Assembly (NCBI GenBank): GCA_016879935.1
Contig: JAACJQ010000330.1
Coordinates: 1-44,572 of the forward strand
Reading direction: 5' to 3'
Source of the DNA: Archangiaceae bacterium
Lineage (GTDB): Bacteria; Myxococcota; Myxococcia; Myxococcales; Myxococcaceae
Length of the DNA stretch: 44,572 nt
Each line of letters starts with the position of its first letter. Position 1 is the first letter of the stretch. A program made the position numbers and the translations under genes. The notes beneath the pieces are model-generated. The model saw only the letters and a list, made by a program, of their open reading frames with translations. It ran no database searches and had not been told where the DNA came from. Below, in pieces: positions 20,004 to 28,116 of the stretch.

Positions 20004-20618
20004 ATGGCGGTGCTCCTGGCTCTCATCGTCGCGTCGGCTCCCGAGCGGTTGCTCGACTCGAACGTGGCTGCAGGCGTTGGCGTGTTGGGCTCGAGCTACA
20101 CGGTCACGGGCTCGCGGCTGGGTGAAGGGCTGCTGGTGCCGACCATCTCGGCGCGTGGCGTCTTCGCGGGCTTCGTCGTCGAAGGCGGCGCGATGGTCTC
20201 GGCTCCGCTCGCGCGCGGCGGCTCGCTCTTCACGCTCACCGGAGCGGCGCGGGTCGGCTGGTCGGGACAGCGCTGGTCGGTCGTCGCGGGCGTCGTCGCG
20301 CAGTTCGCTCCAGAAGCACAGCCAGCGTTGCAGGTGTTGCCGTCGCTACGCGGCCAGGTCTCGTTCGGCACCGCAGGGCTTTCGCTCGGCGTGTTCGACC
20401 ACCTCGGCCTCGTGCCTGCACATCTCTCGGTCGACGTCGGCCCGTTCGAGAACGGCCGCTTCTCGCTCGGCTGGGTCGCGCCCATCGGGCTCATCGGCTC
20501 GGCCGACCTCTCGCTCGGCAGCGGCTTCGGGCTGCGCTTCACCGGGTTCGCGTACAGGCTGAACAATGTCGAGTCGGCGATGCTGCTCGTCAGCGGCACG
20601 TTCGGAGGTGCGCGATGA
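20004..20618 (+). CDS. Putative outer-membrane beta-barrel-like protein
   Basis: The 204-residue protein has a short hydrophobic N-terminus (MAVLLALIVASAPE). A series of alternating-hydrophobic strands rich in Gly follows (VGVLGSSYTV, GGSLFTLTGAARVGW, GSGFGLRFTGFAYRL). This is the look of a small outer-membrane barrel or surface protein. The C-terminus does not end in the usual aromatic residue, so the barrel call is tentative. Its last four bases (ATGA) overlap the start of the GH1 gene, which indicates coupled translation and a shared operon with a glycosidase. Confidence 0.6.
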   Translation: MAVLLALIVASAPERLLDSNVAAGVGVLGSSYTVTGSRLGEGLLVPTISARGVFAGFVVEGGAMVSAPLARGGSLFTLTGAARVGWSGQRWSVVAGVVAQFAPEAQPALQVLPSLRGQVSFGTAGLSLGVFDHLGLVPAHLSVDVGPFENGRFSLGWVAPIGLIGSADLSLGSGFGLRFTGFAYRLNNVESAMLLVSGTFGGAR

Positions 20619-22000
20619 AACGCCTCCTGCTCGTGCTGCTCTGCACGGCGTGTCAGCCACGCGCGGGCCTCGATGACGTGAGCGGCGACGTCGGCGCGCT
20701 CGGCAAAGGCCTGCCGCGTGGGTTCCTCTGGGGCACCGCGACGGCGGCGCATCAAATCGAAGGCGGGCTCGACAACAGCTGGACCGACTTCGAAGCGGGC
20801 GCGTTCCCCGATGGGCGGCCGCACATCAAGAATCAAGACCGCTCCACCATCGCGACCGACAGCTGGAACCGCTTCGACGAAGACCTCGCGGCGATGAAGG
20901 CGCTCGGCTCGACCACCTATCGCTTCAGCATCGAGTGGAGCCGCCTCGAGCCCCGCAAAGGCGAGTGGAACGACGCGGCCATGCAGCGTTACCGCGAGTG
21001 GTGCCTCGAGCTCCGCGCGGCCGGCATCGAGCCCATGGTGACGCTGCATCACTTCACGCTGCCGAAGTGGGTCGTCGAGGCGGGCGGCTTCGAGAACGAA
21101 GCGAGCAAGGCCGACCTCGAGCGCTTCACGCGTCGCGTCGCCGGGAACCTCAAAGACCAGGTCGACTGGTGGGTCACGCTGAACGAGCCGAACGTCTACG
21201 CGGTGCAGGGGTACCTCGCGGGCATCTTCCCGCCGGGGAAGAAGGACGACACCGTCACGCAGACGAAGGTCATCGCCAACATGCTCAAGGCGCACGCGCG
21301 CATGGCGGTGGCGCTCCGCGAGGTCGACGACGTCGACGCCGACGGAGACGGGTTCGCCACCCGCCTCTCGGTCGCGCACCACGTTCGGTACTTTCAGCCC
21401 GCCACCGCGAGCCCGCTCGACACCGCCATCGCCGGCCTCACCGACGACTACTCGAACGAGTCGATTCCGCGCGCGCTGAAGACCGGCCGAATTCTGCTCT
21501 CGGTGCCGGGCGCCATCACCATCGACGAGACCGTTCCCGACCTCGCCGGCAGCATCGATGTGCTGGGCCTCAACTACTACACGCGCGACATGGTGCGGGC
21601 CGACCTCGGCTCGGCGTCGCTGTCTCAGCTGACGTATCGAAAGGGCCGCGCCGTCTCGGACCTCGGGTGGGACCTGTACCCCGATGGCCTGTACAGCTTC
21701 CTCACGCGCTTCTCTGCGTACGGCTGGCCCATCGTCATCACCGAGAACGGGCTCGCCGACCGCTCCGGAAAGCTGCGCACTCCGTTTCTCATTCAGCACC
21801 TCACGGCCATCGAGCGCGCGATTCGCGACGGCGCCGACGTGCGGGGGTACGCGCACTGGAGCCTGATGGACAACTTCGAGTGGGCCGAGGGCTACGACGC
21901 GCAGTTCGGGCTCTTCACCATCGAGAAGACGACGCTGCGTCGGGTGCCCACCGAGTCGGTCCAACCGTTCCGCGCCATCGGCGCCAACATTCCGAGGTGA
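20615..22000 (+). CDS. Glycoside hydrolase family 1, exported lipoprotein-like
   Basis: The 461-residue protein contains a full GH1 domain from about residue 34 (PRGFLWGTATAAHQIEGG). The acid/base Glu is in TLNEPNVYAV and the nucleophile Glu in VITENGLADRSG. The C-terminal HWSLMDNFEWAEGYDAQFGL is the conserved aglycone/sugar-binding loop. GH1 enzymes cleave beta-glucosides and related beta-glycosides, with retention of configuration. Most bacterial GH1 enzymes are cytosolic. This one opens with MKRLLLVLLCTACQPRAG, a signal peptide with a lipobox-like CTAC, so it is probably displayed in the envelope. It overlaps the barrel-like gene upstream and is followed 3 bases later by the TIMP-like gene. 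Substrate cannot be read. Confidence 0.92.
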   Translation: MKRLLLVLLCTACQPRAGLDDVSGDVGALGKGLPRGFLWGTATAAHQIEGGLDNSWTDFEAGAFPDGRPHIKNQDRSTIATDSWNRFDEDLAAMKALGSTTYRFSIEWSRLEPRKGEWNDAAMQRYREWCLELRAAGIEPMVTLHHFTLPKWVVEAGGFENEASKADLERFTRRVAGNLKDQVDWWVTLNEPNVYAVQGYLAGIFPPGKKDDTVTQTKVIANMLKAHARMAVALREVDDVDADGDGFATRLSVAHHVRYFQPATASPLDTAIAGLTDDYSNESIPRALKTGRILLSVPGAITIDETVPDLAGSIDVLGLNYYTRDMVRADLGSASLSQLTYRKGRAVSDLGWDLYPDGLYSFLTRFSAYGWPIVITENGLADRSGKLRTPFLIQHLTAIERAIRDGADVRGYAHWSLMDNFEWAEGYDAQFGLFTIEKTTLRRVPTESVQPFRAIGANIPR

Positions 22001-22003
22001 ACC

Positions 22004-22456
22004 ATGTCGAAGCTGCTCCTCGTGGTGACGTTGTGTCTGGGGGCCGCCGCGTTCGCGTGCAAGTGCCCGACCGACTCCACCTTCCTCGACAACGCGATGG
22101 GCGGCTCGGTCGTGGTGGTGAACGTCGTCGAGGTCGGTGAGCAGTCGATGAAGGTGACCGTCGAGAGGCAGCTCGCGGGCCCGAAGCTGAGCGGGGCGGT
22201 GGTGGTCGAAGGTGGCGACGGCGGTAACTGCAACGCCTCGCTGCGTACCTTCACGAAGGGTCAACGCCTCGTGCTCATCCTCTCGGGGCCGAAGCACGAC
22301 CTCAACGGGTGCGGCGCGCACTCCCTCACGCTCGAGAAAGACGTCGCGAAGGGCGTCGTCGCCGAAGGGGTGAAGTCGATGCCCCTCTCACAGCTCGAGG
22401 CGCGCGTCGCCGAGGCGCAGAAGAAGTACGAGCAGTTCATCAAGGGCGGTGGCTGA
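22004..22456 (+). CDS. Secreted TIMP/netrin-like (NTR) domain protein
   Basis: A 150-residue protein with signal peptide MSKLLLVVTLCLGAAAFA. Cleavage after AFA would leave Cys19-Lys-Cys21-Pro as the mature N-terminus. That matches the CxC opening of tissue inhibitors of metalloproteinases and NTR domains. Cys76 (GNCNASLRTFTKGQRLVLIL) and Cys103 (DLNGCGAHSLTL) fall where the other NTR cysteines lie, allowing two disulfides. In TIMPs the free N-terminal Cys chelates the protease zinc. Here that role is inference. The C-terminal 40 residues are a charged helix. It sits 3 bases after the GH1 gene, so the two are probably co-expressed. The alternative is a generic disulfide-bonded secreted protein. 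Confidence 0.7.
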   Translation: MSKLLLVVTLCLGAAAFACKCPTDSTFLDNAMGGSVVVVNVVEVGEQSMKVTVERQLAGPKLSGAVVVEGGDGGNCNASLRTFTKGQRLVLILSGPKHDLNGCGAHSLTLEKDVAKGVVAEGVKSMPLSQLEARVAEAQKKYEQFIKGGG

Positions 22457-22480: not shown

Positions 22481-23290
22481 ATGAACGCGTCCTGCGCCCT
22501 CCACCCCGACACGGCGGCCACTGGCACCTGCTCCCGCTGTGGCAACTTCGTCTGCGGCCGCTGCGAGCTCGACGACGCGAAGCAGTGCCCATCGTGCGTG
22601 AAGCTCGTCGGCGCCTCGACGCGCGTGGTGCTGCCCTGGGAGCGCCGCGCCGAGCTGGGCCTCGTCAGCGCCTTCTTCGCGCAGGCGAAGCTCGCGGTGT
22701 TCAAGCCCGGTGAGTACGTCGCCGCCATCACGCCCGAGGGCTCGTGGCGTGACGCGTTCTTCTTCGGCTGGCTCGTGTCGGGCTTCGTCGCCGTCGTGTC
22801 GATTCCGTACAACGCGTTCAACTTCTGGTCGCAGGGCGCGCAGATGAAGCAGTCGCTCGCGCCGCTGGGGAACGGCGAGACGATTCGCTCCATCGTCAAT
22901 CTGTACGAGTGGCTCGGCGCGAACCCGCTGCTCGCCGCGGCCGCCATGAGCCTCTACACCGTGGCCATCTACCCACCGATGTTCTTCCTGAACTCGGGCA
23001 CGCAGCAGCTGGGCCTCGCGCTGGCGGGAGCGACCGACCGAAAACCCATCACCGCGACGATGCGGGCCAGCGCGTACGGCCACGCGGTCAACGTGCTGCT
23101 CGCGATTCCCGTCATCGGTGGCCTTGCAGGCATCTATTCGCTGGTGCTGCAGGTCTGGGCGCTGCGCACCGTGCACAACACCACGACGATGAAGGCGGTG
23201 GTCGCCTCGCTCTGGTTCAGCATCGTGCTCGGGTGTTGCGGTGGCGTCGCAGCGGTTGGCTTTGCGGCGAAGTTGCTCTCGAAGAGCTGA
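22481..23290 (+). CDS. YIP1-family membrane protein with N-terminal B-box-like zinc ribbon
   Basis: The 269-residue protein begins with a compact metal-binding module: Cys5-x2-His8, Cys17-x2-Cys20, Cys25-x2-Cys28 and Cys36-x2-Cys39. This spacing fits a B-box-type or zinc-ribbon fold. After residue 85 come about five hydrophobic segments in a Yip1-like arrangement (FFFGWLVSGFVAVVSIPYNA, TVAIYPPMFFLNSG, VNVLLAIPVIGGLAGIYSLV, LWFSIVLGCCGGVAAVGFA). The protein is predicted to be an inner-membrane protein with a cytosolic zinc module. The role is unknown. It follows the TIMP-like gene by 24 bases and is the last plus-strand gene of the cluster, convergent with the 23295 gene. Confidence 0.8.
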   Translation: MNASCALHPDTAATGTCSRCGNFVCGRCELDDAKQCPSCVKLVGASTRVVLPWERRAELGLVSAFFAQAKLAVFKPGEYVAAITPEGSWRDAFFFGWLVSGFVAVVSIPYNAFNFWSQGAQMKQSLAPLGNGETIRSIVNLYEWLGANPLLAAAAMSLYTVAIYPPMFFLNSGTQQLGLALAGATDRKPITATMRASAYGHAVNVLLAIPVIGGLAGIYSLVLQVWALRTVHNTTTMKAVVASLWFSIVLGCCGGVAAVGFAAKLLSKS

Positions 23291-25902: not shown

Positions 25903-25974
25903 GTCGGCGCGTCACGCCAGCGCGACACGCCTGTGGCCCGCTCGGTGCCCAGTGGGTTATGGGTCACGGCTCCC

Positions 25975-28116
25975 ATGCGCTTCGTCGCTGCCCTCCTCGC
26001 CTGCCTGAGCCTGTGGCTGAGCGCCTGCACGCCGCCTCCACCTCCGCCGCGCAAGGAGATCTGCGGCAACGGCCTCGACGACAACGGTGATGGCAAGGCC
26101 GACTGTCTCGACCCGACCTGCTTCGCCGAAGCGCTCTGCGCGCTCAAAGTCGAGAACTGCACCAACGGCATCGACGACGACAACAACGGGCAGCGCGACT
26201 GCGCCGACACCGCCTGTCAGACCGACCCCGCCTGCCTGCGCATCGAGAACTGCGACAACGGCATGGACGACAACGGCAACTCGCTCGTCGACTGCGCCGA
26301 CTCCGACTGTTCGGGAAAGATGGGCTGCGGAGACGGCGGCGCAGAGGCCCCCAACGATTGCTTCGACACCGTCGACAACGACAACAACGGCAAACGTGAC
26401 TGCCGCGACCCCGCGTGTCTGGGGCAGTCGTGTGGCGCCGGCTGTGCCTGCACCGACGCAGGAGTTCCCGGCGAGACCAACTGCGGCAACATGAGCGACG
26501 ACGACGGAGACACGCGCGCCGACTGCGCCGACTCCGATTGTGAAGGCGTCACCTGCGGGCCGGGCTGCGCGTGCGTCGGAGGCAACCGTGGCGAAGGTGA
26601 GTGTGGCGACGGGCTCGACAACGACTCCGACGGGCAGCGTGACTGCGCCGACTCCGATTGCGCGATGCGGTCGTGTGGCGCGGGCTGCACCTGCAAGGCG
26701 GGCGCGAAGACCGAGACCATCTGCACCGGCGGCATGGACGAAGACGGCGATGGCGACGTCGACTGTGCCGACACCGACTGCGTCAACGCTTCGTGCGGCA
26801 CGGGCTGCGTCTGCGCCAACCGCCGCAAGACCGAGACGCTCTGCACCGACAGCATGGACAACGACGGCGACGGCAACGCCGACTGCCTCGACACGCCCGA
26901 CTGCGACGGCACCGCGTGTGGCACCGGCTGCACCTGCGCCTCGGGCCGACGCCGTGAGACCTCGTGCACCGACAAGCAGGACAACGACGGAGACAGCCTG
27001 CGCGACTGCGCCGACACGATGGACTGCTTCGGCGCCGCCAACCACTGCGCCGCCTCTCCGATGCCCGAGACGACGGGCTGCGCCGACGGCATCGACAACG
27101 ACAACAACGGCTTCATCGATTGCGAAGACTCCGCCTGCAACAACCAGACGTGTGGCGGCGGCTGCACCTGCAAGATGAACGTGAAGGCCGAGACGAACTG
27201 CGCCGACGGCCTCGACAACGACTTCGACTCGCGCGCTGATTGCCTCGACAGCGACTGCGTCGGCCTCGGCTCAGAGACGGCGTGCAACGACGGGCGAGAC
27301 AACGACTGCAACGGAGCCATCGACTGCTCCGACATGGGCTGCGTCGCGCAGCCCTCGTGCAGCAACCTCGAGGTGGGGAGACCCTGCATCGTGGGCAGCC
27401 AGTGCACCTCGGGCACCTGCCGCAGCGAAGACCTCTTCGGGTGGCCGGGCGGCAGCTGCATCGCCGGGCTCAACACCTGCAATCGCAGCGACGCCGGCGT
27501 CTCGACCGGCTGCCCGGCGAACGCCGTCTGCCTGGGTGATCAGTTCGGCACCTTCTGCCGTCAGCGCTGCAGCGGCAGCGGGAGCACGGCGTGTCGAACC
27601 GCCTACGCATGTCACGACGACGACGGCGACTCCTCGAGCCCGAACTGGTGCACGCCGATGTGCAGCTCCGACGCCGACTGCCGCGCGCTCGGTGGAACGT
27701 ACGGCTGCAACCTGTGGAGCCGGCTCTGCGAGGTGAAGGACAAGCAGCAACCCAAGTACGGCGGCGCGTGCTCGACGAACACCGACTGCGAGTCGGGCCT
27801 GTGTCAGCGCGCGAGCAACAACGGCGGCTACTGCTTTGGCTGGTGCGCCCGCTCGGGCGGAAACTGCGGCGGCGACGGCGTGTGCGAGCCCGGCCCCAGC
27901 GGTGATGGCACCGGGCGCTGCCTCGACGGCTGCACCATGTCGGGCTCGTCGAGTGAGTGCCGCAGCGGCTCTCCGCAGACCTGTGGGCCCGCGCCGAGCG
28001 GCAGCGTCAACGCCTGCTACTGCCGCGTCGAGAGCGAGTCGTGCTCGTCGGGCGCGCAGTGCTGCCGAGGCAGCTGCATCACCTTCCCCATCGTGGGCGG
28101 CGTCTGCATCTTGTGA
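25975..28116 (+). CDS. Lipoprotein with twelve Cys/Asp repeats
   Basis: The 713-residue protein starts with signal peptide MRFVAALLACLSLWLSACTP, with lipobox LSAC, followed by a proline tract. From about residue 25 to 465 it consists of 12 repeats of about 25-40 residues with the pattern CxNGxDDDxDGxxDCxDxxC. Spacers such as GAGCTC or GTGCVC often lie between them. The Asp/Asn/Gly loops look like calcium-binding loops and each unit can form disulfides, so an extended calcium-stabilised stalk on the cell surface is plausible (inference). The C-terminal 250 residues are Cys-rich without the repeat (CSSDADCRALGGTYGCN, CRVESESCSSGAQCCRGSC), resembling small EGF- or dickkopf-like modules. A hairpin follows the stop at 28119-28169. 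Confidence 0.85.
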   Translation: MRFVAALLACLSLWLSACTPPPPPPRKEICGNGLDDNGDGKADCLDPTCFAEALCALKVENCTNGIDDDNNGQRDCADTACQTDPACLRIENCDNGMDDNGNSLVDCADSDCSGKMGCGDGGAEAPNDCFDTVDNDNNGKRDCRDPACLGQSCGAGCACTDAGVPGETNCGNMSDDDGDTRADCADSDCEGVTCGPGCACVGGNRGEGECGDGLDNDSDGQRDCADSDCAMRSCGAGCTCKAGAKTETICTGGMDEDGDGDVDCADTDCVNASCGTGCVCANRRKTETLCTDSMDNDGDGNADCLDTPDCDGTACGTGCTCASGRRRETSCTDKQDNDGDSLRDCADTMDCFGAANHCAASPMPETTGCADGIDNDNNGFIDCEDSACNNQTCGGGCTCKMNVKAETNCADGLDNDFDSRADCLDSDCVGLGSETACNDGRDNDCNGAIDCSDMGCVAQPSCSNLEVGRPCIVGSQCTSGTCRSEDLFGWPGGSCIAGLNTCNRSDAGVSTGCPANAVCLGDQFGTFCRQRCSGSGSTACRTAYACHDDDGDSSSPNWCTPMCSSDADCRALGGTYGCNLWSRLCEVKDKQQPKYGGACSTNTDCESGLCQRASNNGGYCFGWCARSGGNCGGDGVCEPGPSGDGTGRCLDGCTMSGSSSECRSGSPQTCGPAPSGSVNACYCRVESESCSSGAQCCRGSCITFPIVGGVCIL

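Follow-up and report, generated by a model that had tools for sequence, protein, structure and literature searches.

P0001, a protein of 150 residues encoded in a 44,572-nucleotide contig of an Archangiaceae bacterium (JAACJQ010000330.1 of assembly GCA_016879935.1; we call this whole stretch the window), is very probably a prokaryotic NTR/TIMP-like protein, judging from its sequence relatives and its predicted fold. Its mature chain is predicted to begin with Cys-Lys-Cys on a free N-terminus, and profile comparisons argue strongly that its family is homologous to the animal TIMPs. It is not a TIMP proper. The family to which it belongs, found in Bacteria and Archaea, is widespread and little studied. 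The initial annotation of the gene had proposed a TIMP/netrin-like protein from the sequence alone; fold prediction and profile searches both lead to the same group, by way of intermediate sequences. The gene and its parts, all on the forward strand, are the following:

22004..22456, +, P0001, secreted NTR/TIMP-like protein of 150 residues (open reading frame, same-genus orthologs, chain of profiles leading to TIMP)
22004..22057, +, signal peptide, residues 1-18, with an AFA signal-peptidase I site and no lipobox (from the sequence and the AxA-type site of the relatives)
22058..22066, +, CKC (Cys19, Lys20, Cys21), predicted mature N-terminus, equivalent of TIMP Cys1-x-Cys3 (alignment with TIMP-3 and TIMP-2 from residue 1)
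22229..22231, +, Cys76 (mature 58), equivalent of the Cys70-type cysteine, the partner of Cys1 in TIMP
22310..22312, +, Cys103 (mature 85), equivalent of the Cys99-type cysteine, the partner of Cys3 in TIMP
22385..22444, +, C-terminal helix, mature residues 110-129 (AlphaFold model, pLDDT about 80 there)

The open reading frame starts with ATG and stops with TGA, has 91% GC at third codon positions, as fits a coding frame, and is a real gene. In its translation, the signal peptide ends in GAAAFA and the mature chain opens with CKCPTDS. The latter has 132 residues and four cysteines (positions 19, 21, 76, and 103), while a fifth, Cys11, lies inside the signal peptide. The cleavage after AFA that had been anticipated, leaving Cys-Lys-Cys-Pro, is supported by the relatives: an AxA-type site stands immediately before CxC in 60 of the 62 CxC relatives, with Ala at -1 in 59. 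Among open frames of at least 120 codons in the window, P0001 alone contains the motif AxACxC. Lipidation of Cys19 was considered and rejected, since AFAC is no lipobox, Ala at -3 is the rule in the family, and a lipobox is present in none of the 62 relatives. A TIMP-like mechanism would need the absence of any gap between the cleavage site and CxC, but this feature could also be structural.

The family emerges from profiles rather than from P0001 by itself, whose direct searches of genome contigs and viral contigs retrieved no relatives. A match of P0001 to locus L005 was discarded because the frame is spurious and lies antisense to a peptidase gene, and a weak match of its orthologs to Toxin_4, the Pfam anemone toxin family, was set aside as a short cysteine motif over the first 20 mature residues. 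A profile combining P0001 with two orthologs and a distant relative matched L010 with E=6.6e-12 and others with E-values of 1e-4 to 1e-5. A wider profile matched sequences in 62 of the 195 Myxococcota genomes, some of them cousins lacking the cysteines (see below), and a scan of GTDB contigs yielded 34 relatives, from Bacillota, Chloroflexota, Binatota, Bacteroidota, Acidobacteriota, Omnitrophota, Woesearchaeota, and Myxococcota. When 20 relatives are aligned, nothing is invariant except A-x-A-C-x-C and two further cysteines. The four mature cysteines, described early on as NTR-like in layout, are thus shared by all 20 and lie in register with those of TIMP-3. Residue 2 of the mature chain, typically Ser or Thr in animal TIMPs, is one of these two in 40 of the 62 relatives. 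Many of the GTDB-contig relatives carry a C-terminal hydrophobic segment with a basic tail, and some relatives are fused to carboxypeptidase-regulatory-like domains.

The genome of P0001 encodes a second CxC NTR-like protein (L020, G000:C47:18801-19307, minus strand). This paralog has the same domain and an equivalent site (ADA followed by CSC), and it matches PF00965 from position 1 with E=0.12; unlike P0001, it lies in an open frame of 423 residues in which three carboxypeptidase-regulatory-like stretches follow the domain. A further candidate exported NTR-like protein (L023, G000:C402:1864-2145) has a degenerate N-terminus (WACDRGW) and weak similarity (E=0.012). A Dehalococcoidia genome carries a tandem pair of CxC NTR-like genes whose products have C-terminal membrane anchors (L074:2381-3634), and the second matches PF00965 with E=0.001.

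The link to TIMPs rests on comparisons at several levels. When a profile of 27 mature domains was compared with all PDB sequences, the 15 chains found at E≤1 were all animal TIMPs; the best was TIMP-2 (E=8.6e-7), aligned residue 1 on residue 1 over about 100 residues. A profile of 20 relatives, compared with the same sequences, ranked N-TIMP-3 first (E=5.9e-4) and then agrin NtA alone, a domain that also has a TIMP-like fold. Individually, 6 of the 20 relatives weakly match the Pfam TIMP family (best 7e-5) and 2 of the 20 match Pfam NTR. Profile-profile alignments with hhalign, made without signal peptides, link the P0001 clade to the core family (E=1e-8) and the core family to TIMP-3 (E=1e-6). 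When its own clade is left out of the family profile, P0001 with its signal peptide reaches 19.8 bits, a score beyond every one of about 4000 shuffled sequences, including 2000 with the cysteines held in place. The mature protein alone scores 10.3 bits.

The predicted structure agrees with this assignment. We modelled mature residues 1-101 of P0001 with AlphaFold, using an alignment with 23 relatives and keeping out alignments that misplaced Cys103. The resulting core (pLDDT 73, pTM 0.66) is a helix followed by OB-type strands, so the predicted fold is the OB/NTR one that the initial annotation implied, rather than another. Foldseek alone returned OB folds of mixed kinds, none with an E-value below 0.015, and structural re-alignment separated the NTR folds from the others: TIMP-1 comes out best (Z 9.8, 2.6 Å, 97 of 101 residues), followed by agrin NtA, N-TIMP-3, meteorin NTR, hookworm ES-2, and PCPE. 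CusF and SilB (both at Z 7.4-7.7) rank lower, as do other OB folds. The list for the full mature model, whose alignment has Cys103 one column off, consists almost entirely of NTR and TIMP folds. The C-terminal helix is not part of the core domain of the wider family.

Taken together, these observations suggest that P0001 is a small, secreted, disulfide-stabilised protein with a TIMP-like OB fold of the NTR type. Signal peptidase I would cut directly before Cys19, so that the mature chain starts with Cys-Lys-Cys, and Cys19 and Cys21 would probably be tied to Cys76 and Cys103. Held by these disulfides, the N-terminus would form, as it does in TIMPs, a rigid edge along a barrel of five strands, and the most likely job of the protein would be to bind another protein through this edge. 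The likeliest mechanism is that P0001 inhibits or gates an exported metalloprotease, its own or a foreign one, presumably encoded elsewhere, although we rate this somewhat below an even chance. The explanation as a whole, a secreted NTR protein that binds through its CxC edge and is likely a metalloprotease inhibitor, is likewise offered tentatively. A binding module without inhibitory function ranks close behind inhibition.

Several results weigh against this interpretation, and some of them delimit what P0001 is. By itself, P0001 matches no Pfam family at E≤1 and no NCBIfam model, and finds no true relative in the PDB; the matches obtained there, to designed TIM barrels, arise from low-complexity stretches and were rejected. 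Its clade alone does not reach TIMP-3 directly with hhalign. Since this clade matches the core family and the core family matches TIMP-3, P0001 is best described as a divergent member linked by intermediates. With animal TIMPs (N-terminal inhibitory domain, PF00965), the family shares a CxC that opens the mature chain immediately behind the signal peptide, two cysteine pairs in register, a helix with OB strands, and similarity at the level of profiles. What P0001 has of the NTR/TIMP-like superfamily is an OB-type barrel in the model, CxC and two cysteines in register, and sequence homology through intermediates. It is distinguished from TIMPs proper because it falls below the curated cut-off of PF00965, has Lys at residue 2 like its orthologs (Lys20) instead of Ser or Thr, and, with four mature cysteines and a helix at its C-terminus, lacks both the third disulfide of the N-domain (Cys13-Cys124) and the C-terminal TIMP domain. 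The AlphaFold model depends on the alignment used, which is one of divergent relatives, and its N-terminal residues have a pLDDT of 52-59, so that the geometry of CxC is modelled with low confidence. We found no credible HExxH protease in the window, and neither an HExxH scan nor a tally of Pfam neighbours revealed a metalloprotease within 2.5 kb on either side of the 34 CxC relatives. Finally, in animals many NTR domains do not inhibit proteases.

One alternative we hold to be a real possibility, though somewhat short of even: P0001 may be a structural or adhesive NTR module, akin to those of agrin, netrin, PCPE, and complement C3, that binds an envelope protein or a glycan without inhibiting proteases and is perhaps linked to the GH1 lipoprotein encoded next to it. 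The model has the TIMP-like OB fold of agrin NtA, meteorin NTR, PCPE, and the complement C345C NTR, domains that are not linked to protease inhibition, and the structural scores of agrin NtA, meteorin, and C3 NTR lie within 1-2 Z of that of TIMP. The conserved GH1 neighbour in three genomes, the lack of a protease found nearby, and the relatives with carboxypeptidase-regulatory-like domains or with a hydrophobic segment and basic tail also fit an adhesive module. However, nearly all relatives are predicted to begin their mature chain with CxC, unlike most of the agrin NtA, meteorin, PCPE, and C345C domains, and the sequence similarity points to TIMPs and not to other NTR families. The tie to GH1 is also loosened by a genome that has the GH1 ortholog without the NTR gene.

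Two further explanations were considered. P0001 might be a carrier of copper, silver, or zinc similar to CusF or SilB, with the exposed N-terminal CxC as ligand: both proteins appear in the structural list, and reduced CxC can bind soft metals. Yet P0001 has no Trp and lacks the Met/His/Trp ligand set of the CusF type, TIMP-1 scores higher in structure, and the joint conservation of four cysteines in an exported protein suggests disulfides, which together make a metal carrier improbable. More improbable still is that iterating the profiles produced the NTR likeness by chance and that P0001 is a small exported beta protein unrelated to NTR domains. The modest score of the mature chain against the family profile made without its clade (about 10 bits) is what one might expect in that case, but no shuffle reaches the score obtained with the signal peptide, the clade matches the core family at E=1e-8 once signal peptides are removed, TIMPs make up all of the 15 best PDB sequences, and NTR folds nearly all of the structural list. 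We retain, as the preferred reading, a secreted NTR protein that would bind through its CxC edge.

The profiles of the P0001 family also picked out an exported NTR-like family that lacks the cysteines and aligns with the core family with E=3e-8 (hhalign). It is present in 96 of 96 Myxococcaceae genomes, in one to five copies, and the one copy that was scanned against Pfam had no match. The copies analysed, and those fused to a protease, are:

G000:C171:33680-34228 (L117/L022); G000:C153 (L127); L097-L126; L128-L146, Cys-less NTR-like copies
L129:1844-3298; L142:1937-3373; L143:1217-2647 (minus), NTR-like domain fused to a PF00413 matrixin

At the 30 best loci, which are largely one orthologous locus, a frame with the matrixin-type motif HExxHxxGxxH overlaps or directly follows the Cys-less gene on the same strand in every case; the opposite-strand control gave 0 of 30. 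Among 20 further divergent copies, picked for diversity, the motif is adjacent or in frame in 19, and the last has a frame with HEFGH. All 50 myxobacterial loci examined therefore have a matrixin-type (M10) metalloprotease beside the cousin or fused with it, and in three the NTR-like domain precedes the PF00413 matrixin in a single polypeptide. The cousin could be an inhibitory or chaperone prodomain of the matrixin, separate or fused. This coupling lends support to the idea that the fold has a role tied to metzincins in bacteria, though it does not count as evidence about P0001. A bolder scenario would make of all this a genuine prokaryotic TIMP system, in which CxC NTR proteins place their free N-terminal Cys on the zinc of metzincins, Cys-less cousins act as inhibitory prodomains, and the pairing of animal MMPs with TIMPs has prokaryotic roots. 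We consider it unlikely, although less so than a metal carrier.

In the literature on bacterial homologs of TIMP or netrin, we found only the Mtz-Tim pair of Listeria, a metzincin and a TIMP-like lipoprotein that it cleaves, whose authors knew of no other bacterial TIMP-like record (PMC8235301). P0001 resembles this system in its predicted TIMP-like fold and in the theme of a metzincin partner, and differs from it in having neither a lipobox nor an adjacent protease. The arrangement of Cys-less cousins and matrixins in myxobacteria resembles that of the Listeria pair.

The position of the gene, 3 bases behind a glycosidase as first annotated, was confirmed, and the glycosidase belongs to GH1:

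20615..22000, +, GH1 glycosidase, conserved upstream neighbour of P0001 (PF00232, E=6e-88)

The neighbour is an exported protein, probably a lipoprotein, as suggested by its ortholog in genome G133, which reads VTAC. Orthologs of P0001, 58-60% identical, occur in two of the six other genomes of the genus, and GH1 lies directly upstream of the NTR gene in these two and in the window. A fourth genome (G132) has a GH1 ortholog (85%) with no NTR gene found behind it, and an obligate functional tie between the two genes was rejected on this account despite the conserved synteny. The dN/dS of the NTR gene is 0.48-0.74, which indicates purifying selection, and that of GH1 is 0.21-0.22 in comparisons with the copy of the window. 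P0001 thus evolves about two to three times faster than its neighbour, which would fit a binding partner but is not specific to one. Behind the NTR gene, a gene at 22481-23290 (+) encodes a protein that starts with a B-box-like zinc-binding segment and has a Yip1-like membrane domain in its C-terminal part; it is not at this place in two related genomes. Further downstream (25933-28116, +), a lipoprotein-like protein of 727 residues has many repeats of the NGxDDDxDGxxDCxDxxC type and is possibly metal-binding.

Almost all known TIMPs and other NTR domains come from animals. A prokaryotic family with similarity to TIMPs and a mature CxC end would provide an outgroup for the origins of TIMPs, and the family of P0001 makes the origin of the pairing between TIMPs and proteases testable in bacteria. 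In the matrixin-coupled cousins of myxobacteria, which are harmless inhabitants of soil, the question of inhibition can be tested directly.
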